In this document: positions 53,721-64,000 of the stretch, one piece after another
How positions within the stretch are numbered: the stretch's first letter is position 1
How the letters are laid out: every line of letters begins with the position of its first letter
NCBI RefSeq assembly: GCF_010731695.1
Contig: NZ_AP022586.1
Span: 1,488,001-1,552,000, forward strand
DNA: 64,000 bases
From: Mycolicibacterium litorale
GTDB taxonomy: Bacteria; Actinomycetota; Actinomycetes; Mycobacteriales; Mycobacteriaceae
Reading direction: 5' to 3'
The notes under the pieces: generated by a model
Told to the model about the DNA's origin: nothing
Databases searched by the model: none
The model's input: the letters and a program-made list of their open reading frames with translations, nothing else
Translations under genes and position numbers: made by a program

Positions 53721-53759
53721 GACGACGGCCACCGCACGGTGGTCGTCGTCCTTGTTTTC
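53721..53759 (+). terminator. intrinsic terminator after Rv1830-like gene
   Basis: GACGACGGCCACC (53721-53733), a short loop, and GGTGGTCGTCGTC (53738-53750) form a 13-bp stem with one G-T pair, followed by cttgtttt. Strong intrinsic terminators with a T-run are rare in mycobacteria, so this one probably insulates the core block from the downstream TRAP operon. Confidence 0.75.
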
Positions 53760-54192
53760 CCGCTCGTCGGCGTGGATGTGCATCTGATCCGCAGACACCT
53801 CAGCGCTGAAGGTATCGGATTTTCCGAACTGCCGTACTCCTCGCACGGCGCCGCCGCCGGCATGACGTTCCTCACTCCGGCGTGACCGGACACTTCGAGA
53901 CCCGCACGGACACGACGAGACGGGCACCGGTGGGGACGCGACCGGCGGCGATGCGTCGCCGTGCCGGCAGCGCAACCCCATAGTGAAACCCGGATCTGTT
54001 AACTCCGTGTCACGGCGAAGTTCCATCTGCCGCAGTTAATTTCACGTTACAGAGCATCTGTTTGACAGATGCAGACAGTCGCTTTTGACTGTTTGACGCA
54101 CGGGCGTTCGTCTCGGACTCTTGAAAACACCAGCGGCCGAGCCGCATTCGCTTCAGTCCGACCGCCGGTCGAGCCCACGAGAGGAATTACCC
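53760..54192 (+). other. intergenic region upstream of TRAP operon
   Basis: No convincing gene: a short plus-strand frame ending at 53883-53885 overlaps the terminator and was rejected. The part from about 53990 to 54130 is AT-richer than its surroundings. It contains two adjacent hairpins and two copies of TGTTTGAC (54059 and 54090), one of which supplies a TTGACA -35-like hexamer (54062-54067). The long leader and hairpins should hold the regulation of the operon. Confidence 0.6.
54054..54092 (+). promoter_or_regulatory. tandem hairpins / candidate operator of the TRAP operon
   Basis: GCATCTG-TTTGA-CAGATGC (54054-54072) is a perfect 7-bp inverted repeat, and ACAGTC-GCTTTT-GACTGT (54075-54092) is a perfect 6-bp one just after it. 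Both sit about 100-140 bp before dctP. They could be binding sites for the operon's LysR protein or an RNA structure in the leader. Confidence 0.45.
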
Positions 54193-55197
54193 ATGAGGCC
54201 AAGCGTCAAAACAATTGCCGCGTGCGGTTTCACCGCACTGCTGACACTGACCGCGTGTTCTTCCGGGGAAACCCAAACAGATTCGGACACAACAAAACTC
54301 ACGCTGGCTGTCGAGACCAGCCAGGGTGACCCGCTGGCCGATATGCTGCTGGCATTCGCCGACGAGGTCCGAGCCGAACTCGGTGACTCCGTCGAACTCA
54401 ACGTGCAGACCGGCGGTGCCATCGGTGACGAGGAGGCGGTGCTGCAGGGTCTGCGCGCCGGCGCCGTCGACGTCGCTGCGGTCAGCGGCTCGGTCGCCAA
54501 CATCGACCCGATGTTCAACGTCATGGAAATGCCGTTCCTGTTCACCGACCGGCAGACCGCCGCGGAATTCCTCGACGGCGACTTCGGCGACGAACTGAGC
54601 GAATCCCTGGTCGGCACCGCCGGTGCCCGGGTAGTGGGATTCGGCGAGAACGGCTTCCGTCACATCACCAACAACACCCGTCCGATCAACACGTCCACCG
54701 ACCTGCAGGGGCTCAAGATCCGGGTGCCCGGAAACCCGGCACGGGTCATGATGTTCGAGGCGCTCGGGGCGACGCCCACGCAGATCGACATCGGAGAGGC
54801 CTACCTCGCGCTCGACCAGGGTGTGCTCGACGGCCAGGAGAACCCGCTCAAGGTCATCGACGCCTTCTCGTTCTACGAGAAGCAGCGCTACCTGACGCTC
54901 ACCTCGCACATCTACAGTCCGGTCTACCTGGCGGTCAACGAAAAGACATGGCAGGGAATGGCACCCGAGGTCCAGCAGGGTCTGCAGACCGCGGCCGCGG
55001 CGGCTGCGGAAACCAGCCGCAAGTCGGGTGCGGAGGCCGACGAAGTGCTGGTGGCCAAGTTCGAGCAGGCCGGCGTCCAGGTGAACGAGGCCGACGTCAA
55101 CCAGCTCAGCGAGACCGTGTCCGCGGTCCGTGAGGAGATCGCCGGCGAGATCCCCGGCGACTTCGCCCAGCGGGTGCTCGCCGAGTACAACCAGTGA
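54193..55197 (+). CDS. dctP: TRAP transporter solute-binding lipoprotein DctP
   Basis: The 334-residue protein has a lipoprotein signal with lipobox LTACSS (Cys at about residue 22) and the DctP fold: LTLAVETSQGDPLADMLLAFADEV, MFNVMEMPFLFTDRQTAAEFL, GLKIRVPGNPARVMMFEALGATPTQIDIGEAYLALDQGVLDGQENPLKV with the conserved Arg in RVP. It captures an organic acid outside the membrane. ATG 54193 follows AGAGGA. TRAP systems are uncommon in mycobacteria, which supports horizontal acquisition. The next GTG overlaps its stop. Confidence 0.93.
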   Translation: MRPSVKTIAACGFTALLTLTACSSGETQTDSDTTKLTLAVETSQGDPLADMLLAFADEVRAELGDSVELNVQTGGAIGDEEAVLQGLRAGAVDVAAVSGSVANIDPMFNVMEMPFLFTDRQTAAEFLDGDFGDELSESLVGTAGARVVGFGENGFRHITNNTRPINTSTDLQGLKIRVPGNPARVMMFEALGATPTQIDIGEAYLALDQGVLDGQENPLKVIDAFSFYEKQRYLTLTSHIYSPVYLAVNEKTWQGMAPEVQQGLQTAAAAAAETSRKSGAEADEVLVAKFEQAGVQVNEADVNQLSETVSAVREEIAGEIPGDFAQRVLAEYNQ

Positions 55198-55991
55198 GCG
55201 CCGAGCACCGCCGGCGGCCGGCTCTGCCCCTCGCCGAACTCACCACCGCCACCCGAATCGGCTTGGTGTACATGGCGTCCAGCACACTGATGGAAGCCGA
55301 GATGTACGCCATGGCGACACCTTCAGCCACCGTGCACACCAGCCGGGTGACGCTGCCGTCGGTCACGGTCGACGGCATCGATGCGATGATGCGCTCGCCG
55401 GAACTGCGGACGGCCGTCGAACTCGTCGCACAGGCCCCGCTCGACCTGCTGCTCTTCGGCGGCACCAGCGCGTCCTTCCTGCACGGCACGGCCTGGGACC
55501 GGATGCTGATCGAACACCTCGAAGAGTGGAGCGGCCTGGCCGGGCGCTGTACCACGACCTCCACGGCCAGCGTCGCGGCGCTCGACGCGGTCGGTGCGGG
55601 CGCCATCGCGCTGGTCACCCCGTACCGCCAGGAGGTGATCGACCGGGCCGAGCGCTTCTTCGCCGACAACGGGCATCCGGTGGTCGCCAGTGTCGGCCTC
55701 GGCATCACCGACGACCGGGAACTCGCGCGCGTTCCCCTCGACGACGTCTACGACCTGGCGCTGGCCACCGACGTCGCCGCAGCCGACGCGGTGTTCATCA
55801 GCTGCACCAACTTCGCCAGCGTCGGCGCGATCGCCGCGTTGGAGGAGGCGCTGGGCAAACCGGTGATCAGTGCGGTGCAGGCGTCGTTCTGGTACGCGCT
55901 CCAGCTCACCGGTTCGGCGGCCGCCCGACCGGGATTCGGGCAGCTGTTCGGGGCGCGCGCGCCCGTGGCCACCTCGGGATCACGGCCGTGA
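55194..55991 (+). CDS. Asp/Glu racemase superfamily protein, arylmalonate-decarboxylase-like
   Basis: The 265-residue protein belongs to the Asp/Glu racemase-hydantoin racemase-maleate isomerase superfamily. The first cysteine motif of racemases/maleate isomerase is replaced by FGGTSASF (Gly90-Thr91-Ser92), while the second is kept as FISCTNFASV (Cys204). This GTS plus single-Cys pattern is that of arylmalonate decarboxylase, where Gly-Thr-Ser forms the oxyanion pocket and one Cys does proton transfer. A malonate-type decarboxylase or an enolising isomerase is thus likely. It is placed between dctP and dctQ, overlapping both by 4 nt. Confidence 0.72.
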   Translation: MSAEHRRRPALPLAELTTATRIGLVYMASSTLMEAEMYAMATPSATVHTSRVTLPSVTVDGIDAMMRSPELRTAVELVAQAPLDLLLFGGTSASFLHGTAWDRMLIEHLEEWSGLAGRCTTTSTASVAALDAVGAGAIALVTPYRQEVIDRAERFFADNGHPVVASVGLGITDDRELARVPLDDVYDLALATDVAAADAVFISCTNFASVGAIAALEEALGKPVISAVQASFWYALQLTGSAAARPGFGQLFGARAPVATSGSRP

Positions 55992-56566
55992 CCCCCGAAG
56001 CGCCCAACGCGCATACGATTTCGGGTTCAGCCGATGTCGCCGAACACCTCGATTCGACGTTCGGCGTGGAACCCGCCACGTACGCCGACACCGTCGTCGA
56101 CCGCGTGCTGGAAGCGGTCGCGGCACTGCTGCTGGCGTCCATCACGCTGGTGCTGTTCGTCAACGCCGGGCTTCGGTTCGTGTTCGACTCACCGTGGGGC
56201 GGAACCGAAGAACTCGTCACCGGGCTGATGCTGTGGTTGACGATGCTGGGGTTCACGATCGGCGTGCGCCGCCGAGAGTCGATCGAGGTGCGCGCCTTCG
56301 TCGACCGGCTACCGGTCCGCCTCGCGGTGTGGCTCAAGCTGGCCACCGACCTGCTCATGGCGCTGATCCTCCTGCACCTGGCGTGGTTCGCCTACCGGTA
56401 TGTCACCGAGTTCGGCGGCGATCTGACCCCGTTCCTGCGGTTGCCCCGCGGATTCTTCACCGCCGCGCTGCCCGTCGGCGCCGTCGCCGCCGCGGTGATC
56501 GTCCTCGTCCAACTGCCCGGCGTGCGCGCGGCGGTCCTGCGCCAGCGTGAGGAGTATCAGCCGTGA
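55988..56566 (+). CDS. dctQ: TRAP transporter small permease DctQ
   Basis: The 192-residue protein has four hydrophobic segments (about 47-70, 85-103, 118-140, 158-178) and the DctQ signature WGGTEELVTGLMLWLTMLGFTIGVRRRESIEVRAF. The N-terminal 45 residues are hydrophilic and longer than usual. It anchors the transporter complex with DctM. The GTG start overlaps the stop of the decarboxylase-like gene (GTGA), and its own stop overlaps dctM, so production is tightly coupled. Confidence 0.92.
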   Translation: MTPEAPNAHTISGSADVAEHLDSTFGVEPATYADTVVDRVLEAVAALLLASITLVLFVNAGLRFVFDSPWGGTEELVTGLMLWLTMLGFTIGVRRRESIEVRAFVDRLPVRLAVWLKLATDLLMALILLHLAWFAYRYVTEFGGDLTPFLRLPRGFFTAALPVGAVAAAVIVLVQLPGVRAAVLRQREEYQP

Positions 56567-57843
56567 CGATCACCGTGACCCTCGCCGTGATCATCGGGTT
56601 GCTGGTGTTCGGCACCCCGCTCATCGTGTCCATGGCCGCCGGCGTCGCGCTCTACACGATGCTCGAGGGCGGCTGGATGATGCAGTACCCGCAGCAGGTC
56701 ACAGAAGGAATGGGCAGCTTCGTCCTGCTCGCGATGCCGTTGTTCATCCTCGCCGGGGTGGTGATGAACGCCGGCGGCATCGCCGACCGTGTGTTCGCCT
56801 TCGCGCGTTCACTTTTCGGTCCGCTGCCGGGCGGGCTGGCTCAGGTCGACGTCACCACCAGCCTGTTCTTCGGCGGCATGGTCGGCACGTCGGTGGCCGA
56901 TCTGGCCGGCACCGGCTCGACACTCATCCCGCAGATGAAACGCCACGGCTATCCCGCGCCGTACGCCGCGGCCGTCACGGCGTCATCGTCGGGCATCGGA
57001 CCGCTGATCCCCCCGTCGTCGCCGATGATCCTCTATGCCGCGGCGACCGGCACGTCGCTGGGCACGCTGTTCTTCGCCGGCGTCGTGCCCGGGGTGATCC
57101 TCACCGTCGCGCTGATGGTGACCGTCGGTGTCCAGGCCAAACGCAACGGCTGGGGCGAGAAGATCGCCTTCGACTGGCGCGAGGTGTTGCGCACGCTGCG
57201 GGCCTCGGCGCTCGCTTTCGGTGTGCCCGTGCTCATCCTGCTCGGCCTCACCCTCGGTGTCTTCACCCCGACCGAGTCAGGTGCGTTCGCGGTCGTGTAC
57301 GCCATCCTGATCTCCGCGGTCGCCTACCGGTCACTGGGCCTGCGCAGGCTGTACCGCTGTCTCGTGGAGGCCGCGGTGCTGACCGGTGAGGTGATGCTGA
57401 TCGTCGGGGTCTCGGTGGCCTTGGGCGCGGTGCTGGCGATGGCCGGTCTGCCGCAGGTGCTGGCCGACTTCGCCACCTCCGTGGTCCCCGGTGACACGCA
57501 GCTGGGATACGTCGTCGTGCTGACCGTGGTCGCCGTCCTCGCCGGGATGTTGTTCGACCCGCTCATCCCGGTCATCATGCCGGTGCTGCTGCCGACGATC
57601 CTGCAGGTGGGTATCGACCCCGTCTATTTCGGCGTGATCATCGTGCTGACGGTCATCGTCGGTCAGGTGACCCCGCCCGTGGCGATGTCGTTGGTGGTCG
57701 CGGCGAAGATCGCCAAGGTCGACGCATGGGCGGTGCTGCGGGCCAACACGCCGTTCCTCGTCGCGACCCTGGTCGTGCTGGCACTCGTCATCGCGTTCCC
57801 CGCGCTGGCGACCTGGCTGCCGTCCGTGCTTGGCCAGCCGTGA
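56563..57843 (+). CDS. dctM: TRAP transporter large permease DctM
   Basis: The 426-residue protein has about 12 hydrophobic segments and the DctM/SiaT layout: VFGTPLIVSMAAGVALYTM, LLAMPLFILAGVVMNAGGIADRVFAFAR, FFGGMVGTSVADLAGTGSTLIPQMKRHGYPAPYAAAVTASSSGIGPLIPPS and FTPTESGAFAVVYA. It moves the organic acid with Na+ or H+. The last gene of the transporter, it overlaps the LysR gene by 4 nt, which puts import and regulation on one transcript. Confidence 0.95.
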   Translation: MTITVTLAVIIGLLVFGTPLIVSMAAGVALYTMLEGGWMMQYPQQVTEGMGSFVLLAMPLFILAGVVMNAGGIADRVFAFARSLFGPLPGGLAQVDVTTSLFFGGMVGTSVADLAGTGSTLIPQMKRHGYPAPYAAAVTASSSGIGPLIPPSSPMILYAAATGTSLGTLFFAGVVPGVILTVALMVTVGVQAKRNGWGEKIAFDWREVLRTLRASALAFGVPVLILLGLTLGVFTPTESGAFAVVYAILISAVAYRSLGLRRLYRCLVEAAVLTGEVMLIVGVSVALGAVLAMAGLPQVLADFATSVVPGDTQLGYVVVLTVVAVLAGMLFDPLIPVIMPVLLPTILQVGIDPVYFGVIIVLTVIVGQVTPPVAMSLVVAAKIAKVDAWAVLRANTPFLVATLVVLALVIAFPALATWLPSVLGQP

Positions 57844-58769
57844 CGAGCGTCGACCAGCTACGGGGGATCTCCCTGACACAGCTGCGGTACTTCATCCGGG
57901 TGGCCGAGCGGGAGAGCATGACCCGGGCGGCGGAGGATCTGTTCGTCGCGCAGTCCGCGGTGTCCTCGGCGGTCGCCCATCTCGAGAAGGAGCTGGGCGT
58001 CCAGCTGTTCATCCGCCGCCACGCCAAGGGGCTGATCCTCACCCCCGCGGGCCGCGAACTGCTGCTGCGTGCCAGGCAGATCCTCACCGCGCTCGCCGAG
58101 TCCCTCGAGTCGATCGCCGGTGACGCGCGGGCGTTGTGGGGTGCGCTGCACGTGGTGTGCTTCAGTCCGCTGGCGCCGTTCTACCTGCCGTCCATCCTCA
58201 CCGGTCTCAAGCTCGAGCACCCGGGCCTCGAACTCCTGGTGAGCGAGGCGGTGGCCGGAGAAGTGGGTGAGTACCTGGAGTCCGGGCGCGCCGAGGTCGC
58301 GTTGACCTACGACCTCGCCCTCGCCGACGGCATCGAACGCGAGGTGCTGGCCGAGATCCGGCCGTACGTGGCCCTACCGGCCGGACACCGCCTCGCCGAC
58401 GCGCCGAGCGTGCACCTGCGGGACCTCGTCGAGGAGGACATGATCCTCGTCGACCTGCCGTACAGCCGTGACTACTTCATCGGCGTCTTCACCGCCCGTG
58501 GGCTGGCGCCGAAGATCCAGTACCGATCGGGCAGCTACGAGACGGTCCGCGCGATGGTCGCACAGCACCACGGGTACAGCCTGCTGCACCAGCGGCCGGC
58601 GACCGACACCACCTACGGCGGTGGCCGCGTCGTCGCGGTACCGCTGGCCGACGATGTGGAACCGCTGCGCGTGGTGGTCGCCCACCTGGGTTCGCTGCGG
58701 CTGAGCCGTCGCGCCCGCGCCTTCACCGATCGGTGCCGGGTGGTCGTCACCGATGTCAACCCCGGCTGA
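57840..58769 (+). CDS. LysR-type transcriptional regulator
   Basis: The 309-residue regulator has the N-terminal HTH TQLRYFIRVAERESMTRAAEDLFVAQSAVSSAVAHLEKELGVQLFIRRHAKGLILTPAGRELL, and a periplasmic-binding-like co-inducer domain (about 95-300). Unlike most LysR genes it is not divergent; it is inside the operon it probably controls, overlapping dctM by 4 nt and 12 bp before the hydrolase gene. Autoregulation through the operon promoter near 54050 is likely. The inducer is probably the imported acid. Confidence 0.92.
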   Translation: MTSVDQLRGISLTQLRYFIRVAERESMTRAAEDLFVAQSAVSSAVAHLEKELGVQLFIRRHAKGLILTPAGRELLLRARQILTALAESLESIAGDARALWGALHVVCFSPLAPFYLPSILTGLKLEHPGLELLVSEAVAGEVGEYLESGRAEVALTYDLALADGIEREVLAEIRPYVALPAGHRLADAPSVHLRDLVEEDMILVDLPYSRDYFIGVFTARGLAPKIQYRSGSYETVRAMVAQHHGYSLLHQRPATDTTYGGGRVVAVPLADDVEPLRVVVAHLGSLRLSRRARAFTDRCRVVVTDVNPG

Positions 58770-58781
58770 ATCGGAGCCCGA

Positions 58782-59576
58782 ATGCAGACCCCACCCGTCC
58801 CCGCGTATGTGGCGACGCCGGACGGCCGGATGCACGTCGTCACGCGCGGAACCGGCCCCGCGCTGGTGCTGCTGCACCAGACGCCGCGGTGCTGGGACGA
58901 ATACCGAACGCTCCTCGACCATCTCGACGGTTACCGCGTCATCGTCCCGGACCTGCCCGGCCACGGCGCGTCGGATCCAACGCAGGAGAACACCGTCGGC
59001 GCCACGGCACGCGCAGTGCTCGGGATCCTCGACGCGCTCGGCGTCCCGCGCGCACACGTGGTGGGACACCACTTCGGCGGCCTGGTGGCGTATCACCTCG
59101 CCGCGACCCACCCGTACCGGGTCGAGTCGCTCGTACTGTCCTCCACGCCCTACATCGACGCCGCAGAGCGCGAACGCAGGCGCGACGCACTGCCGTTCAA
59201 CAGCGTCGCAGGCCCCGCGGACGGCGCGCACCTACACCGGCTCTGGGAACGCCGGTCGAGCTACCTCGCCACGCCCGACCCGCTGGTGTTGAGCCGTTAC
59301 GTGCGTGACGTGCTGGCCCATCCCGACCCCGACCGAGGTCACGCGGCGGTGGCGGCCTACCGCTCCGAGGACGCCGTCGGCCGGTACGACGGCCCGGTGC
59401 TGTGCATCGCGTCGGCCTGCGATCCTCGGTCTTTCCCGCACCGCGGCCGGATCCTGGCGGCCTTCCCCCAGGCGACCGAACACGTGCTGGGGGGCGACAT
59501 CTCGAGTCCGGAGACCTGTCCGGAAGACTTCGCCGCGGCCGTCACCGGCTTCCACCGGCGGCTGGCCGGCCGATGA
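58782..59576 (+). CDS. alpha/beta hydrolase-fold protein with degenerate catalytic triad
   Basis: The 264-residue protein has LVLLHQTPRCWDEYRTLLDHL and the nucleophile elbow AHVVGHHFGGLVAYHL, where His97 replaces the usual Ser of G-x-S-x-G. The Asp of the triad is present (IASACDP, Asp214), but the expected catalytic His region reads VLGGDISSPE, without His. E. coli RutD, an aminoacrylate-handling protein, also lacks the Ser (GHALGA). This one may be a binding/chaperone protein, a cofactor-free oxygenase-like enzyme, or use His as a base. Its stop overlaps the dehydrogenase ATG. Confidence 0.85.
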   Translation: MQTPPVPAYVATPDGRMHVVTRGTGPALVLLHQTPRCWDEYRTLLDHLDGYRVIVPDLPGHGASDPTQENTVGATARAVLGILDALGVPRAHVVGHHFGGLVAYHLAATHPYRVESLVLSSTPYIDAAERERRRDALPFNSVAGPADGAHLHRLWERRSSYLATPDPLVLSRYVRDVLAHPDPDRGHAAVAAYRSEDAVGRYDGPVLCIASACDPRSFPHRGRILAAFPQATEHVLGGDISSPETCPEDFAAAVTGFHRRLAGR

Positions 59577-60556
59577 GCACCGATGAGATGCGGGCCGCAG
59601 TGCTGAAGCGGGCCGGTGGACCCGACGTGCTGACGCTCGACCGGGTGCGTACGCCGGGCCCTGCGGCCGGTGAGGTGCTGGTGCGGGTGTGCGCGTTCGG
59701 GCTGAACAACGCCGAGGTGCTGCAACGCCGCGGTGCGATGCCCGGGCCGCCCGGCGGGATTCCTGGACTGGAGTGTTCGGGCGTCGTCGCTGCCACCGGA
59801 CCCGGGGTCACCGGGTGGGAGCCGGGGGACCGGGTGGCGGCGCTGGCGCGCTGCGGTACGTACGCCGAGTTCGTGGCCGTCCCGGCCGGGGCGTGTATGC
59901 GCGTGCCCGACGGCCTCGACCTCACGGTGGCCGCCGCCGCCCCCGAAGCCGCCGCGACCGCATGGTGGAACCTGGTGCGCCGCGGCCGGATGCGGGCGGG
60001 GGAGCGGGTGCTGATCCACGGTGCCGCCGGGGGAGTCGGCTCCGTCGCGGTGCAGCTGGCGCGGCAGCTCGGCGGGTACGTGGTCGGTACCGCCCGCGGT
60101 GACCGGAAGACGGCGCTGTGCGCAGAGCTCGGCTGTCACGACGTGATCGACTACGGCCGCGTCGACGTATCACTGTCGGCGAGTGGACTGTTCGACGTGA
60201 TCCTCGACAATCAGGGGGGACCCGCCGTTGCGGCGAACGTCTCGCTGCTCGCGCCGTTCGGCCGTCTGGTCATCGTCGGCGTGCAGGCCGGTGGGCCGGG
60301 CCGGCTCGATGCGGCCGAGCTGATGAGTCGCGCGGCCGAGGTGTCGTCGTCAAGCCTGGGCCGCCTGGATGACGATGTCCGGCAACAGCTCTGCCGAAAC
60401 GTGGAACGGGAGGTCCTCCCTCGACTGGCCGACGGTGCGATCCGCGTGGTGGTCGACAGCCGGTTCGGATTCGAGGACATCGTCGGTGCGCATGAGCGGT
60501 TCAGCGCACCCGATCGCGTCGGCAAGGTGCTCGTGACGGTGACCGATGACATCTGA
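59573..60556 (+). CDS. zinc-free NAD(P)H quinone oxidoreductase-type MDR dehydrogenase
   Basis: The 327-residue MDR protein lacks the zinc-binding residues of alcohol dehydrogenase and has the quinone-oxidoreductase signature: VRVCAFGLNNAEVLQRRGAMPGPPGGIPGLECSGVVAATGPGV, then GERVLIHGAAGGVGSVAVQLARQLG for the cofactor, and GKVLVTVTDD at the end. It likely reduces a C=C bond or a quinone. ATG 59573 overlaps the hydrolase stop by 4 nt. A 67-bp gap follows before the flavin reductase gene, the only real break in the operon. Confidence 0.88.
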   Translation: MSTDEMRAAVLKRAGGPDVLTLDRVRTPGPAAGEVLVRVCAFGLNNAEVLQRRGAMPGPPGGIPGLECSGVVAATGPGVTGWEPGDRVAALARCGTYAEFVAVPAGACMRVPDGLDLTVAAAAPEAAATAWWNLVRRGRMRAGERVLIHGAAGGVGSVAVQLARQLGGYVVGTARGDRKTALCAELGCHDVIDYGRVDVSLSASGLFDVILDNQGGPAVAANVSLLAPFGRLVIVGVQAGGPGRLDAAELMSRAAEVSSSSLGRLDDDVRQQLCRNVEREVLPRLADGAIRVVVDSRFGFEDIVGAHERFSAPDRVGKVLVTVTDDI

Positions 60557-60623
60557 TGATCCGATGCAGCGCAACGCAATCAACTGTTTGCACGATGATG
60601 CCGGTGCCGGAAGGATCGATAGT

Positions 60624-61148
60624 GTGAACACGATGCCGCTCGTCGCTCCGCACGACTTCGTCCGCGCGATCACCCGCACGGCCACCCCGGTCTCCATCGT
60701 CACCGCGCAAGGCGGTGGGGTGCGACTCGGTCAGACGGTGTCGGCATTCAACCGGGTGTCCGACGAGCCGGCGATCCTCGGAGTCTGCATCAACCGGCGC
60801 AGCCCGATCCATGCCGTGATCCGCGCCTGCGGCGCGTTCAACGTCTCAGTGCTGGCCCGTGAACACCGCGGTGTCGCAGACTGTTTCGCCGGCAGGGGCG
60901 GCCCCGACCGGGCACCGTTCACCTTCCTCGACCGGGAGTGGCAGACCGGCGTCAACGGGCTGCCGGTCTTCGCCGACGGACTCGCGGCCTTCGAATGCAC
61001 GGTGCACAGCATCACCGAGATCGGTTCGCACCTGCTGTATCTCGGCGAAGTCGGCCGGGTGGTGCACCGCGACGCCGAACCCCTACTCCACCAACGCGGC
61101 AGCTATCGCACGTTGGCCCAGCAGGACACGGAAGGACACCACGCATGA
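60624..61148 (+). CDS. NAD(P)H:flavin oxidoreductase (HpaC-like)
   Basis: The 174-residue protein is a flavin-reductase domain (PF01613) enzyme: PVSIVTAQGGGVRLGQTVSAFNRVSDEPAILGVCINRRSPIHAVI, then FNVSVLAREHRGVADCFAGR and SHLLYLGEVGRVVHR. It supplies reduced FAD/FMN to a partner monooxygenase. GTG 60624 has AAGGA 8 nt upstream; the frame starting at 60546 is not needed. Its stop overlaps the HpaB-type gene (ATGA), matching the hpaB-hpaC partnership. It also resembles RutF of the pyrimidine pathway. Confidence 0.92.
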   Translation: MNTMPLVAPHDFVRAITRTATPVSIVTAQGGGVRLGQTVSAFNRVSDEPAILGVCINRRSPIHAVIRACGAFNVSVLAREHRGVADCFAGRGGPDRAPFTFLDREWQTGVNGLPVFADGLAAFECTVHSITEIGSHLLYLGEVGRVVHRDAEPLLHQRGSYRTLAQQDTEGHHA

Positions 61149-62605
61149 TCAGGACCGGAGACCAGTACCGCGACGAGATCCGCGGTGGGCGCGAGATCTA
61201 CATCGACGGCGAACGGGTGGAGGACGTCACCAAGCACCCGATGTTCGCACCCATCGTCGACATCAGGGCGCGCATCTACGACCTGGCGCACGAGGCGCAG
61301 ACCCAGGACGTGATGACCTACGTCGACGAGAACGGCGAGCGCAACGCGATCGCGAACAAACTGCCGTTCACGCAGAAGGATTGGCACGACAAGCGCGCCG
61401 CGATCGATCTGGTGCTCGACGAGGCGCGCGGCGTGGTGACCCGGGTCGGTGACGAGACCGTCGGCGAGATGTGGGCGCTCTACGACGGTCAGGACGTGCT
61501 CAACGAGGTCGACCCTCGGTTCGCCGAGAACATCCGGCGCCATGTCCACAAGGCCGCCACCGGCGACCCGTTCCACATCTCGGCCAACACCGATCCGAAG
61601 GGCGACCGGTCGAAGCGGCCACAGGATCAGGACCCCGACATGCTCCTGCACGTGGTGAGGGAGACCGACGACGGCATCATCGTGCGCGGCGCCAAGTACG
61701 AGACCGCCGCCCCGTACGCCACGCAGGCGTACACCAAACCCACCATCGCCAACTGGGGCGACGCCTTGCTCTCGGACTACGCCGTCGGCTTCATCGCCGA
61801 CCTCAACGCCCCTAATCTGAAGTTCATCTGCCGCACCGGTTTTGCCGGTCGCCGGGATGCCGCGGACTACCCGTTGTCGAACCGGGTGGACGAGGTGGAG
61901 TCGCTGGTGATCTTCGACAACGTGCTGATCCCCTGGGACGACATCCTGTTCTACCGGCACACCAGGGCCGCGACCTTCGTCCGCAGCTGTCTGCACCGCT
62001 ACAGCGCGCTGCCCTACGTACACCGCTCGATCCGGTTCGCCGACCTGATGATCGGTGCGGCGCTGTACAACGTGCGCCAGACCGGTCTGGACAAGAACCC
62101 TGCCGTACAGGAGAAGCTGGCGATGCTGGCCTGCTACCGCGAGGGCATCGACGCGCATCTGACCGCCTCGATCGCCACCGCCGAGACCAGCCCCGGCGGC
62201 CTGCTCATGCCGAACCAGTCCCTGCTCTACGCCGGGCGGGTGTGGGCGCAGACCCAGCTGCCGCAGATGATGCACTATGCGCGCGAACTGTGCGGCGGGC
62301 AGATCTGCATCACCCCGGACTCGGCCACCTTCTCCACACCCGGCGCGTCGGAGTGGCTCGAGAAGTACTACTCGATCACCGACGAATGGCAGGCCGACGA
62401 CCGTCGCAAACTCCTGGCCTTCGCCCGCGACCTGCTCAACAGCGACTACGCCGGTCACCGGCTGACCTTCCAGTTGTTCGCGCAGGCACCGCCTTTCGCG
62501 CACTACCAGGCCGTGTACCGCAACTTCGACTTCGACGGGCCGCTGGCGATGGTGCGGGCCGCCGCTGAGCTGTCCGAGCGGGTGGACGGAGGCGTTTCGG
62601 CGTGA
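61145..62605 (+). CDS. 4-hydroxyphenylacetate 3-hydroxylase family (HpaB-type) flavin monooxygenase
   Basis: The 486-residue protein has the HpaB N- and C-terminal domains: RTGDQYRDEIRGGREIYIDGERVEDVTKHPMF at the N-terminus, RPQDQDPDMLLHVVRETDDGIIVRGAKYETAAPYATQA in the middle, and a C-terminal acyl-CoA-dehydrogenase-like helical bundle with LELCGGQ-type ARELCGGQICITP. Such oxygenases use reduced FADH2 from a separate reductase, here encoded immediately upstream. Family substrates range from phenols to pyrrole- or pyridine-type heterocycles, so the substrate is open. It is the likely oxygen-inserting step of the operon. Confidence 0.92.
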   Translation: MIRTGDQYRDEIRGGREIYIDGERVEDVTKHPMFAPIVDIRARIYDLAHEAQTQDVMTYVDENGERNAIANKLPFTQKDWHDKRAAIDLVLDEARGVVTRVGDETVGEMWALYDGQDVLNEVDPRFAENIRRHVHKAATGDPFHISANTDPKGDRSKRPQDQDPDMLLHVVRETDDGIIVRGAKYETAAPYATQAYTKPTIANWGDALLSDYAVGFIADLNAPNLKFICRTGFAGRRDAADYPLSNRVDEVESLVIFDNVLIPWDDILFYRHTRAATFVRSCLHRYSALPYVHRSIRFADLMIGAALYNVRQTGLDKNPAVQEKLAMLACYREGIDAHLTASIATAETSPGGLLMPNQSLLYAGRVWAQTQLPQMMHYARELCGGQICITPDSATFSTPGASEWLEKYYSITDEWQADDRRKLLAFARDLLNSDYAGHRLTFQLFAQAPPFAHYQAVYRNFDFDGPLAMVRAAAELSERVDGGVSA

Positions 62606-63018
62606 CCCATCGGCGGATCCGTCCCTTCAACACCCGCGACACCTACCCGGAGCAGAACCTGGACAACGATCTGTGTCAGGCCGTCGTGGCCGGCGACACC
62701 ATCTACCTGCGCGGCCAGATCGGCCAGGATCTCGACACCGCGGTCAGCGTCGGCGTCGGCGACGTCACCGCGCAGGCCGAACAGGCGATGGCCAACGTCG
62801 CCACCCTGCTGGGCGAAGCCGGGGCATCGCTGGACGACATCGTCAAGGTGACCGTCTACCTCGTCGATTCCCGGTACCGGGAGAGCGTCTATCGGGTGAT
62901 GGGGCGCTGGCTGCGCGGCGTCCACCCCGTCTCCACCGGTCTGGTGGTCAGCGCGCTGGCCCGCCCGGAGTGGCTGGTCGAAATCGACGTGGTCGCCGTG
63001 CGGCAGGCGGCGTCGTGA
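62602..63018 (+). CDS. RidA/YjgF family protein, non-canonical
   Basis: The 138-residue protein has the RidA fold: FNTRDTYPEQNLDNDLCQAVVAGDTIYLRGQIGQD, AEQAMANVATLLGEAGASLDDIVKVTVYLVD and EWLVEIDVVAV. The Arg that binds the imine/enamine carboxylate in E. coli RidA (in P-A-R-S) is replaced: HPVSTGLVV, Ser111. That places it with Rid subfamilies that lack imine deaminase activity in tests, or with another substrate. Within a flavin monooxygenase operon it may act on a reactive enamine like RutC does. GTG 62602 overlaps the HpaB stop by 4 nt. Confidence 0.9.
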   Translation: MTHRRIRPFNTRDTYPEQNLDNDLCQAVVAGDTIYLRGQIGQDLDTAVSVGVGDVTAQAEQAMANVATLLGEAGASLDDIVKVTVYLVDSRYRESVYRVMGRWLRGVHPVSTGLVVSALARPEWLVEIDVVAVRQAAS

Positions 63019-63689
63019 CGTTCTCGCTCGCCGCCGTCGACCGAGACACCGGCGCATTGGGCATGGTCATCGCATCGTCCTCTCCCGCAGTCGCATCGCG
63101 CTGCCTGACCATCCGCCCGGGGCTGGGGGCAGCTGCGAGCCAGAACGTCACCGACCCCCGCCTCGGCGAGAAGCTCCTCGACCGGCTGGCGGCGGGGGAC
63201 AACCCGCGGGAGGCCATGTCGGCCGTCGTCGCCGGCCACGAACTGCGTGACTACCGCCAGCTGACCGTGCTGGACAGCACCGGTCGCTGTGCGGCGTTCA
63301 GCGGTGCGGGAGCACTGGGCACACACCACCACCTCGAAGGAGACGGCGTGGTGGCCGCGGGCAACATGCTCGCGGGACGCCGGACGATCACCGAGCTGGT
63401 GCGCGGCTACGAGCGTTCGACCGCAACGGAATTCGAAGGCAGACTGCTCGACGGACTGGGCGCCGCGCTGGCCGCCGGTGGGGAGGAGGGCCCTGTCCAC
63501 GCGGCCGGCCTGCTGGTCTACCGCGAAGTGGAGTGGCCGGAGACCACACTGCGGGTCGACTGGGCCGACGATCCGTACGAAGCGTTGTGCGCGCTGTGGG
63601 ATGTCTGGGCGCCCCAGCGCGACGACTACGTCCGGCGGGCGCTGGATCCCGCGGCGGCACCGTCGTTCGGAGCGCCCGGTGACCTCTGA
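63015..63689 (+). CDS. DUF1028 family protein (Ntn-hydrolase-like)
   Basis: The 224-residue protein matches DUF1028 (PF06267): MTFSLAAVDRDTGALGMVIASSSPAV, GLGAAASQNVTDPRLGEKLLDRLAAGDNPREAMSAV, RQLTVLDSTGRCAAFSGAGALGTHHHLEGDGVVAAGNML. The family has a Ntn-hydrolase-like fold and often occurs with RidA and amidohydrolases, but no reaction has been shown to my knowledge. It overlaps RidA and the M20 gene, so all three probably act on the same intermediate. Confidence 0.88.
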   Translation: MTFSLAAVDRDTGALGMVIASSSPAVASRCLTIRPGLGAAASQNVTDPRLGEKLLDRLAAGDNPREAMSAVVAGHELRDYRQLTVLDSTGRCAAFSGAGALGTHHHLEGDGVVAAGNMLAGRRTITELVRGYERSTATEFEGRLLDGLGAALAAGGEEGPVHAAGLLVYREVEWPETTLRVDWADDPYEALCALWDVWAPQRDDYVRRALDPAAAPSFGAPGDL

Positions 63690-64000
63690 CCCCGCGCAGC
63701 ACCGGGACGCCACGGCGCGCCGCAAGCGGGCCGCGCAGGAGTGTCTCGACCGCCGCTGGGACACGATCCGCGAGATCAGCACCGGCCTGCACGCCGACCC
63801 GGAGACCGCGTGGCACGAGGTGCGCGCCCATCGCCGGCTCACCGCGCTGCTCGCATCCGAGGGATTCACCGTCGACCCGAGGGCCGGAGGCCTCGACACC
63901 GCCTTCCGCGCCACCGCCGGCTCCGGGCCCGTCCACGTGGCGTTCGTCGCGGAGTACGACGCTCTGCCCGGGCTCGGCCACGCCTGCGGCCACAACCTGA
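63679..64000 (+). CDS. M20 family metallopeptidase/amidohydrolase, N-terminal part (3' end outside window)
   Basis: The frame from GTG 63679 is open to the end of the window, giving 107 residues. It has the M20 start RRWDTIREISTGLHADPETAWHEVRAHRRLTALLASEGFTVD, then HVAFVAEYDALPGLGHACGHNL, whose HACGHN motif holds zinc/manganese ligands of the AbgB/amidohydrolase group. Family enzymes hydrolyse amide bonds such as aminobenzoyl-glutamate, N-acyl amino acids or carbamoyl compounds. The start overlaps the DUF1028 gene by 11 nt. Confidence 0.9.
   Translation, partial: MTSDPAQHRDATARRKRAAQECLDRRWDTIREISTGLHADPETAWHEVRAHRRLTALLASEGFTVDPRAGGLDTAFRATAGSGPVHVAFVAEYDALPGLGHACGHNL

Follow-up and report, generated by a model that had tools for sequence, protein, structure and literature searches.

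The window analysed here, a stretch of 64,000 nucleotides from Mycolicibacterium litorale, ends within an operon of twelve genes that runs from 54193 to 64896; the last gene, for an M20 amidohydrolase, passes the window end and finishes at L002:12896, equivalent to window position 64896. The initial annotation had described eleven complete genes and a partial one at 54193-64000, nearly all joined by 4-nt overlaps, behind a terminator and an AT-rich region, and this description holds throughout. Eight of the eleven junctions are 4-nt overlaps, the remaining three being gaps of 12 nt (lysR-abh) and 67 nt (qor-hpaC) and an 11-nt overlap (DUF1028-M20). Downstream of the terminator-like hairpin, GC content drops to 48% at positions 53977-54100, the window as a whole having 69%; only 0.03% of segments of that length, taken in 20-base steps, are lower. 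The family assignments agree with Pfam and NCBIfam (Table 1). Syntenic clusters, which the annotation had proposed to look for, exist: the whole block is kept in four named Mycolicibacterium/Mycobacterium loci (L015-L018) and occurs in altered order in Nocardia carnea (L019), so the arrangement is more than chance, and the operon is real.

Table 1. Features of the operon and its upstream region (window coordinates).
Feature	Position	Strand	Family or remark
Terminator-like hairpin, 5' of operon	53721..53750	+	13-pair stem, T-rich tail
Predicted LysR operator, GCATCTG-N5-CAGATGC	54054..54072	.	core ATC-N9-GAT at 54056-54070
DctP, TRAP solute-binding subunit	54193..55197	+	PF03480; TIGR00787 above cut-off
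AMDase/EutA-like protein, single catalytic-type Cys	55194..55991	+	PF17645; below both equivalog cut-offs
DctQ, TRAP small permease	55988..56566	+	PF04290
DctM, TRAP large permease	56563..57843	+	PF06808; TIGR00786 above cut-off
LysR regulator, HinK-like	57840..58769	+	nearest solved chains 6m5f, 3fzv
Alpha/beta-hydrolase-fold protein without the usual nucleophile (GHHFG/GHHYG elbow)	58782..59576	+	PF00561
MDR / quinone-oxidoreductase-like protein, PIG3 family	59573..60556	+	TIGR02824 295.8, just below cut-off 296.8
HpaC-like flavin reductase	60624..61148	+	PF01613; start codon a choice, frame open from 60546
HpaB-family oxygenase, proposed ImAA monooxygenase in HinF position	61145..62605	+	PF11794 + PF03241
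RidA-family protein, putative HinL counterpart	62602..63018	+	PF01042
DUF1028 protein, putative HinH counterpart; Ntn-hydrolase fold, Thr2 likely nucleophile	63015..63689	+	
M20 amidohydrolase, putative HinG counterpart (start only)	63679..64000	+	PF01546; TIGR01891 over cut-off

What might such an operon degrade? A first clue is offered by its distal genes, which appear in the order HpaB-RidA-DUF1028-M20, the order of hinF-L-H-G. The Hin pathway acts on imidazole-4-acetate (ImAA), the acid into which histamine is converted. In PMC8231116 and PMC6467879, the hinF-L-H-G genes found in P. aeruginosa and Pseudomonas putida U are tied to the conversion of ImAA to aspartate. HinF of Pseudomonas is an FAD monooxygenase with a single component, and Pfam identifies an enzyme of this kind in the reading frame that precedes RidA at five Pseudomonas loci examined and also in L127-L129; in FMO-type Pseudomonas, RidA adjoins DUF1028. 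Gene order in Pseudomonas is variable, for instance in L117 and L132. We provisionally equate HinH with DUF1028 from gene order rather than from a named P. aeruginosa protein; the DUF1028 protein of the operon has the Ntn fold with an N-terminal nucleophile. De la Torre and co-workers reportedly placed N2-formylisoasparagine among the Hin intermediates in 2018.

The regulator points in the same direction. Against solved structures the LysR protein scores 216 bits each with 6m5f and 3fzv, 107 with 2ql3 and then 73 bits. The title of 6m5f names HinK of P. aeruginosa, the ImAA-responsive regulator of the Hin pathway, to which the operon protein is 40% identical; 2ql3, from Rhodococcus RHA1, covers no more than a ligand-binding domain. 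The operon regulator is HinK-like, with ImAA as its predicted ligand. The initial annotation had presented the gene set as possibly undescribed and as matching neither Rut nor Nic, and had conceded that a known substrate for related clusters would speak against this. For one half of the set this is largely the situation, and a known route does match: RidA-DUF1028-M20 and LysR correspond to hinL-hinH-hinG and hinK. Its functional outline survives, with HpaB/HpaC probably opening an N-heterocycle, RidA acting as an enamine/imine deaminase and an amide being hydrolysed.

The oxygenase itself belongs by Pfam to the family of 4-hydroxyphenylacetate 3-monooxygenase, with which HpaB/HpaC share the two-component flavin oxygenase architecture. 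The operon HpaB, however, falls below both NCBIfam HpaB equivalog cut-offs (227.5 against 480.2 and 146.7 against 885.2). HpaB relatives were found in 385 stretches of the searched genome contigs, and the best 80 loci were compared. A legend in PMC10816480 gives Arg100, Tyr104 and His142 as key residues of TtHpaB (these residue names did not turn up in a term search of the accessible text of PMC6506529); in all of the best 80 of 385 loci Arg100 is kept, but Tyr104 is replaced by Glu and His142 by Ser (TtHpaB numbering). With both profile scores below cut-off and the phenol-site Tyr and His gone, we reject identity with 4-hydroxyphenylacetate hydroxylase, and a genuine phenol hydroxylase is exceedingly improbable here. 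Many HpaB-type loci now bear the name '4-hydroxyphenylacetate 3-hydroxylase family protein'.

The neighbourhoods of the best 80 of the 385 HpaB loci are informative. A RidA relative is present in 72; in 8 of the 80 no RidA, and in 12 no DUF1028, was found close to HpaB, some of these loci being cut by contig ends. Among the same best 80, a histamine dehydrogenase relative (at least 55% to that of L023, which matches solved 3k30 with 1025 bits) accompanies HpaB in 12, an aspartase (at least 45%) in 13, a HinC-like gene (at least 50%) in 2 and a HinD-like gene in 10; a second M20 gene occurs in 7 (Arthrobacter/Streptomyces). The ring opening of pyrrole-2-carboxylate is chemistry suited to a two-component flavin enzyme with RidA, and this or another non-imidazole N-heterocycle might be proposed as substrate; we hold it very improbable, because histamine dehydrogenase, aspartase, HinC/HinD-like genes and a HinK-like regulator indicate an imidazole and aspartate. 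Homarine breakdown is unsupported, no matching cluster being found in the literature searched.

The putative operator adds to this picture. The inverted repeat upstream of dctP, the probable LysR operator, is conserved in L015-L018 and degenerate in L019. Its pattern, ATCWGN5CWGAT, has one site in the window against 0.12 expected, and four in the genome against one for a reversed-pattern control. Two Rhodococcus loci (L020, L023) have it again, placed between the genes for histamine dehydrogenase and a permease; in an FMO-type locus (L148) it lies between histamine dehydrogenase and LysR, and, judged by coordinate, it also occurs in L021 and L024. It is present in only 15 of the best 80 of 385 HpaB loci, and none was seen ahead of hinF in the parts of the Pseudomonas loci L127-L129 that were inspected.

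Taken as a whole, the sequence evidence makes it likely, in our judgement, that the operon serves the uptake and full ring opening of ImAA, or of a very close imidazole acid, to aspartate. The TRAP system DctPQM would import the imidazole acid. HpaC would provide reduced FAD, with which HpaB may hydroxylate an imidazole ring carbon to give imidazolone acetate, the pair standing in for the FAD monooxygenase HinF. By analogy with the Hin pathway, the ring would then open, the HinL-like RidA would hydrolyse an imine or enamine intermediate, DUF1028 as a HinH-like Ntn hydrolase (Thr2) would hydrolyse an amide, and the HinG-like M20 protein would take off the formyl group to leave aspartate. The ATC-N9-GAT operator is probably where the HinK-like LysR acts in response to ImAA. 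The Hin route is known; the proposed exchange of the ring-opening enzyme and the operon's own importer would be the new part.

How general is this exchange? Among 301 family genomes, HpaB is present in 11 and the FAD enzyme (at least 55% identity) in 11, with none holding both; DUF1028 occurs in 11/11 of the former and 10/11 of the latter (Fisher 9e-13 and 1e-10). Nine of the 30 DUF1028-bearing family genomes have neither oxygenase type, so DUF1028 is not exclusive to a Hin-type pathway. Of 79 Pseudomonas genomes, 55 have the FAD enzyme (E<=1e-100) and one has HpaB (E<=1e-60). No FAD-enzyme match was found in that one (G301/L052), yet for the HinL/H/G/D/C-like proteins its identity with the L129 counterparts is 87/71/72/77/86%. 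Absence of the FAD enzyme from HpaB genomes refers to 5 candidates scored per family genome and up to 21 in Pseudomonas. On the DUF1028 tree the oxygenase type changes four times, two of these changes being forced by starred branches; shuffles average 23 changes, and none of 500 was as low as 4. The HpaB and FAD oxygenase types have been repeatedly exchanged around a conserved downstream set.

Another possibility is that the HpaB type acts on a distinct though related imidazole, such as an N-methylated imidazoleacetate or some other imidazole acid, and shares only the lower Hin pathway. Such a division is suggested by one Arthrobacter locus among the best 80 (L022), where a contig-end fragment of FAD-type HinF lies near HpaB: coexistence is thus possible, and each type may in that case have an imidazole of its own as substrate. 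Transporters also vary widely among HpaB loci, and histamine dehydrogenase was not found at E<=1e-150 in either TRAP/AMDase genome, that of M. litorale or Nocardia G022. (A copper amine oxidase is encoded in the M. litorale genome outside the operon.) Yet eight of the nine other family HpaB genomes have histamine dehydrogenase and no FAD-type HinF of at least 55% was found in them, so HpaB is the only ImAA candidate seen in those eight; in L052, moreover, HpaB replaces HinF in place. We regard the different-imidazole explanation as unlikely.

Five named relatives also retain what the operon has beyond the Hin set, namely the genes for the TRAP importer, the AMDase-like protein, the alpha/beta-fold protein and the quinone-oxidoreductase-like protein. 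The AMDase-like protein is of the same family as arylmalonate decarboxylase and ectoine EutA and shares the single-Cys active-site pattern of AMDase, but scores under both equivalog cut-offs (109.6 against 225 for NF052327, arylmalonate decarboxylase). In an alignment the protein keeps T-S, a Tyr and a Cys where AMDase has its dioxyanion-hole Thr-Ser, its Tyr and its single catalytic Cys, and these are conserved in L015-L019. Decarboxylation or isomerisation of a diacid, as supposed in the initial annotation, is conceivable as its role. At some ectoine loci TRAP genes neighbour EutA, as they neighbour the AMDase-like gene here. The alpha/beta-fold protein has His at the nucleophile position in all six sequences (the window and L015-L019), where epoxide hydrolases have an aligned Asp.

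These four functions might serve a substrate other than ImAA, two units thus sharing one transcript, a reading compatible with the preferred ImAA explanation for the lower half. The AMDase-like gene is present in just 5 of the best 80 of 385 HpaB loci, known Hin steps do not require these genes, and the 67-nt gap falls between the two parts. On the other hand, the AMDase-like gene (E<=1e-30) occurs in only 2 of the 301 family genomes, both with the operon cluster; in the re-ordered Nocardia block qor and hpaB are nonetheless adjacent, with abh in front; and the HinK-like regulator lies inside the TRAP half, with its likely operator in front. Separate substrates seem to us rather unlikely. A broader hypothesis, which we put forward tentatively and consider somewhat doubtful, joins two propositions: that the HpaB/HpaC clade is a second, independently evolved ImAA monooxygenase repeatedly displacing HinF in Actinomycetota and Pseudomonadota, and that in the mycolicibacterial/Nocardia form the TRAP, AMDase-like and alpha/beta-fold proteins and the reductase turn some imidazole (di)acid into a Hin intermediate, as a new upper pathway.

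PMC8231116 reports that sequenced Gram-positive bacteria had appeared to lack hin genes; FAD-type homologues were later found in Brevibacterium (PMC6467879). No link of HpaB to imidazoles, histamine or ImAA was found in the literature searched, partly available and lying mostly outside subscription journals, and a term search of the accessible text of two reviews (PMC10816480, PMC6165268) returned neither imidazole nor histamine. DUF1028 gave no literature match under that name, and its combination with RidA and monooxygenase nothing of use. If the ImAA reading is true, many loci named for 4-hydroxyphenylacetate 3-hydroxylase belong to imidazoleacetate (histamine) degradation, and the HinF swap would keep further such pathways hidden from HinF-based searches. 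HpaB-type flavin oxygenases would gain a new substrate class, an imidazole; DUF1028 would acquire a suggested function as an Ntn amidase; and the AMDase-like and nucleophile-less alpha/beta-fold proteins would represent testable new steps.

Among known systems, the Rut uracil pathway has flavin reductase, RidA and alpha/beta-hydrolase-fold families in common with the operon. It is nevertheless rejected: neither RutA nor RutB is among the twelve genes, as initially noted, and scores fall far below the equivalog cut-offs for RutC (34.9 against 169.1), RutD (40.2 against 238.5) and RutF (86.5 against 254.75). The earlier analogy with RutD fails on this score and on the missing nucleophile. With the Pseudomonas Hin pathway the operon shares the order monooxygenase-RidA-DUF1028-M20 and a HinK-like LysR. 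HinC/HinD-like genes or histamine dehydrogenase, as well as aspartase, turn up in some related HpaB clusters. The operon differs in having no histamine-oxidising gene and no aspartase (HinI), which counts against the ImAA reading. A HinF-type FAD monooxygenase is absent from its twelve genes, with no match at E<=1e-80 in the M. litorale genome (5 of 43 candidates scored); in its place stands the unrelated HpaB/HpaC pair, to which the operon adds the TRAP importer and the AMDase-like, alpha/beta-fold and quinone-oxidoreductase-like genes.

We infer that the operon encodes a Hin-type lower pathway in which HpaB/HpaC stand in place of HinF, joined to a lineage-specific uptake module, with every chemical step putative. 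Eight of its 11 gene junctions are 4-nt overlaps, and the long frame lying 3' of the glycine riboswitch after M20 is presumably gcvP. In the Pseudomonas route, as a review (PMC8231116) and a second paper (PMC6467879) describe it, imidazole-4-acetate is converted to aspartate by the products of hinFLHG: HinF is a FAD monooxygenase (EC 1.14.13.5), HinL deaminates an enamine, and HinH and HinG are both amidases, the latter EC 3.5.1.8. Aspartase is encoded by hinI, and the LysR regulator HinK responds to imidazole-4-acetate.

Locations of the operon and of features in related loci
Feature	Location	Remark
Window	G000:C1:1488001-1552000	host genome, 5.58 Mb, single contig
Operon (dctP-amd-dctQ-dctM-lysR-abh-qor-hpaC-hpaB-ridA-DUF1028-M20)	window 54193-64896	gene order
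Alpha/beta-fold protein (abh)	window 58782-59576	
Glycine riboswitch RF00504	L002:12911-13009	58.7 bits; directly after M20, just past window end
Copper amine oxidase, adjoining permease-like frame	L158:3395-5410	G000:C1:2378475 region
FAD-type HinF fragment, Arthrobacter	L022:1-841	contig end
Complete HpaB cluster, Arthrobacter	L022:10001-11464	
LysR flanked by two HpaB copies, Halotalea	L034:9770-14172	
Second M20	L027:7061-8206	

HpaB relatives are encoded in 385 stretches (genome_contigs scan), and neighbourhoods were counted in the best 80 of these, with flanks of at most 10 kb that are often ended by contig ends. These 80 loci come from Actinomycetota and Pseudomonadota, with HpaB identities of 71-94%, the closest named ones being L015-L018 from Mycolicibacterium/Mycobacterium, and on that ground the host is probably an actinomycete resembling Mycolicibacterium. 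Near HpaB stand RidA (72/80), DUF1028 (68/80), HpaC (57/80) and M20 of either the window type (21/80) or the Pseudomonas HinG type (26/80). The same set occurs on plasmid pAMI6 of Paracoccus aminophilus (HpaB, RidA, DUF1028, an 'argE' M20, two LysR-type genes and HutD) and on pUSP1 of Aminobacter sp. MSH1 (flavin reductase, HpaB, RidA, DUF1028, LysR, 'argE', aspartate ammonia-lyase and quinone oxidoreductase). The transporter type is not constant, being TRAP, ABC, NCS1 or amino-acid permease.

HutD-family genes lie near alphaproteobacterial HpaB clusters in seven of the 80 loci (L046, L069, L070, L072, L081, L083, L088) and in plasmid loci L159 and L161, a recurrence that hints at a connection, through imidazole, with the use of histidine. 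Seven Arthrobacter/Streptomyces loci of the 80 (L027, with relatives in L022, L026 and L028-L031) have a second, distinct M20 adjoining HpaB, in some cases with a family-3 solute-binding protein; this enzyme may free an imidazole acid from an amide. The two Halotalea HpaB copies are 74% and 64% identical to that of the window.

What occupies the place of HpaB in Pseudomonas? In the five loci opened, RidA is preceded by a frame encoding a FAD monooxygenase of the single-component kind. Locus L129 reads FAD enzyme, RidA, DUF1028, M20, then HinD-like and HinC-like genes (Pfam support), and the order differs among loci (e.g. L117, L132). Among 79 Pseudomonas genomes, DUF1028 is present in 58, the FAD enzyme in 55 and both in 54; the one genome with the FAD enzyme that lacks DUF1028 is G370. 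The DUF1028 genomes without the FAD enzyme are G301, where HpaB stands at its position, G314 and G380, whose DUF1028 is the distant one (36%), and G353, whose DUF1028 is degenerate (the one such case among the 58).

The occurrence of HpaB versus the FAD enzyme was also compared across 301 genomes of the host's family (DISPLACEMENT): HpaB is found in 11, the FAD enzyme (at least 55% identity) in 11, and both in none, absences that hold at the depth of the searches because five candidates were scored per genome. DUF1028 occurs in 30 of the 301 (29 over the cut-off), including 11/11 HpaB and 10/11 FAD genomes (association by Fisher) and nine genomes with neither. In a DUF1028 tree of 67 HpaB-type and 26 FAD-type sequences, oxygenase type changes four times, two of these changes being forced by starred branches; shuffled types gave a mean of 23 changes, and 0/500 shuffles were as low as four. 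The FAD clade of Pseudomonas (98*) encloses the HpaB rows of that genus, and the HpaB rows from Rhodococcus fall within an actinobacterial clade that also contains FAD rows (97*), so the downstream set broadly tracks the host and the oxygenase is swapped. The counter-case is the Arthrobacter locus L022, where a FAD-type HinF fragment accompanies a complete HpaB cluster and two LysR genes; there the two enzymes may therefore act on different substrates.

At E<=1e-80 the FAD enzyme search reached 90/301 family genomes, 79 of them at no more than 43% identity; a HinF paralogue (39-43%) is common in the family, in these 79 further genomes. Against the profile of the MSMEG_0569 flavin oxidoreductase family, HinF itself gives a match that stays under the cut-off.

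A histamine link can be weighed on the surrounding genes and the regulator. Protein c9 of L023 is a histamine dehydrogenase relative (3k30, E=0, 1025 bits), and among the best 80 of 385 HpaB loci its relatives (at least 55% identity) occur in 12, aspartase in 13, HinD-like genes in 10 and HinC-like genes in two. The window LysR matches HinK (6m5f, by title) and 3fzv at 216 bits, followed by 2ql3 at 107 bits (ligand-binding domain only) and then 73 bits. A putative operator, ATCTGTTTGACAGAT, lies upstream of dctP and is kept in L015-L018; its pattern recurs in Rhodococcus between histamine dehydrogenase and permease, and in the FMO-type locus L148 between histamine dehydrogenase and LysR. Against the link count its limitation to 15 of these best 80 loci and its absence upstream of hinF in the stretches of Pseudomonas loci L127-L129 examined. 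Elsewhere in the host genome, the copper amine oxidase beside a permease-like frame may oxidise histamine.

The upper genes dctP, amd, dctQ, dctM, lysR, abh and qor stay together in L015-L018 and in L019 from Nocardia carnea. The amd gene is found in five of the best 80 HpaB loci, and quinone-oxidoreductase-like genes (at least 35%) adjoin HpaB in ten. Within the 301 family genomes the AMDase-like gene was found only in the host and one Nocardia (G022), itself HpaB-positive. A search of the family HpaB genomes found histamine dehydrogenase absent from both and present in eight of the other nine, the ninth being 74% complete (Fisher p 0.055 for the contrast). We infer that the TRAP/AMDase form takes up an imidazole acid rather than oxidising histamine. 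The residue pattern of AMDase is preserved in the AMDase-like protein, but its scores fall short of the cut-offs for both AMDase and EutA. In the alpha/beta-fold protein, 6/6 sequences carry a His at the nucleophile elbow (GHHFG/GHHYG), and it is possibly a non-hydrolytic member.

Set against the Hin pathway, the operon is not classed as a canonical Hin cluster because HinF was looked for in it and not found, though it would work like one.
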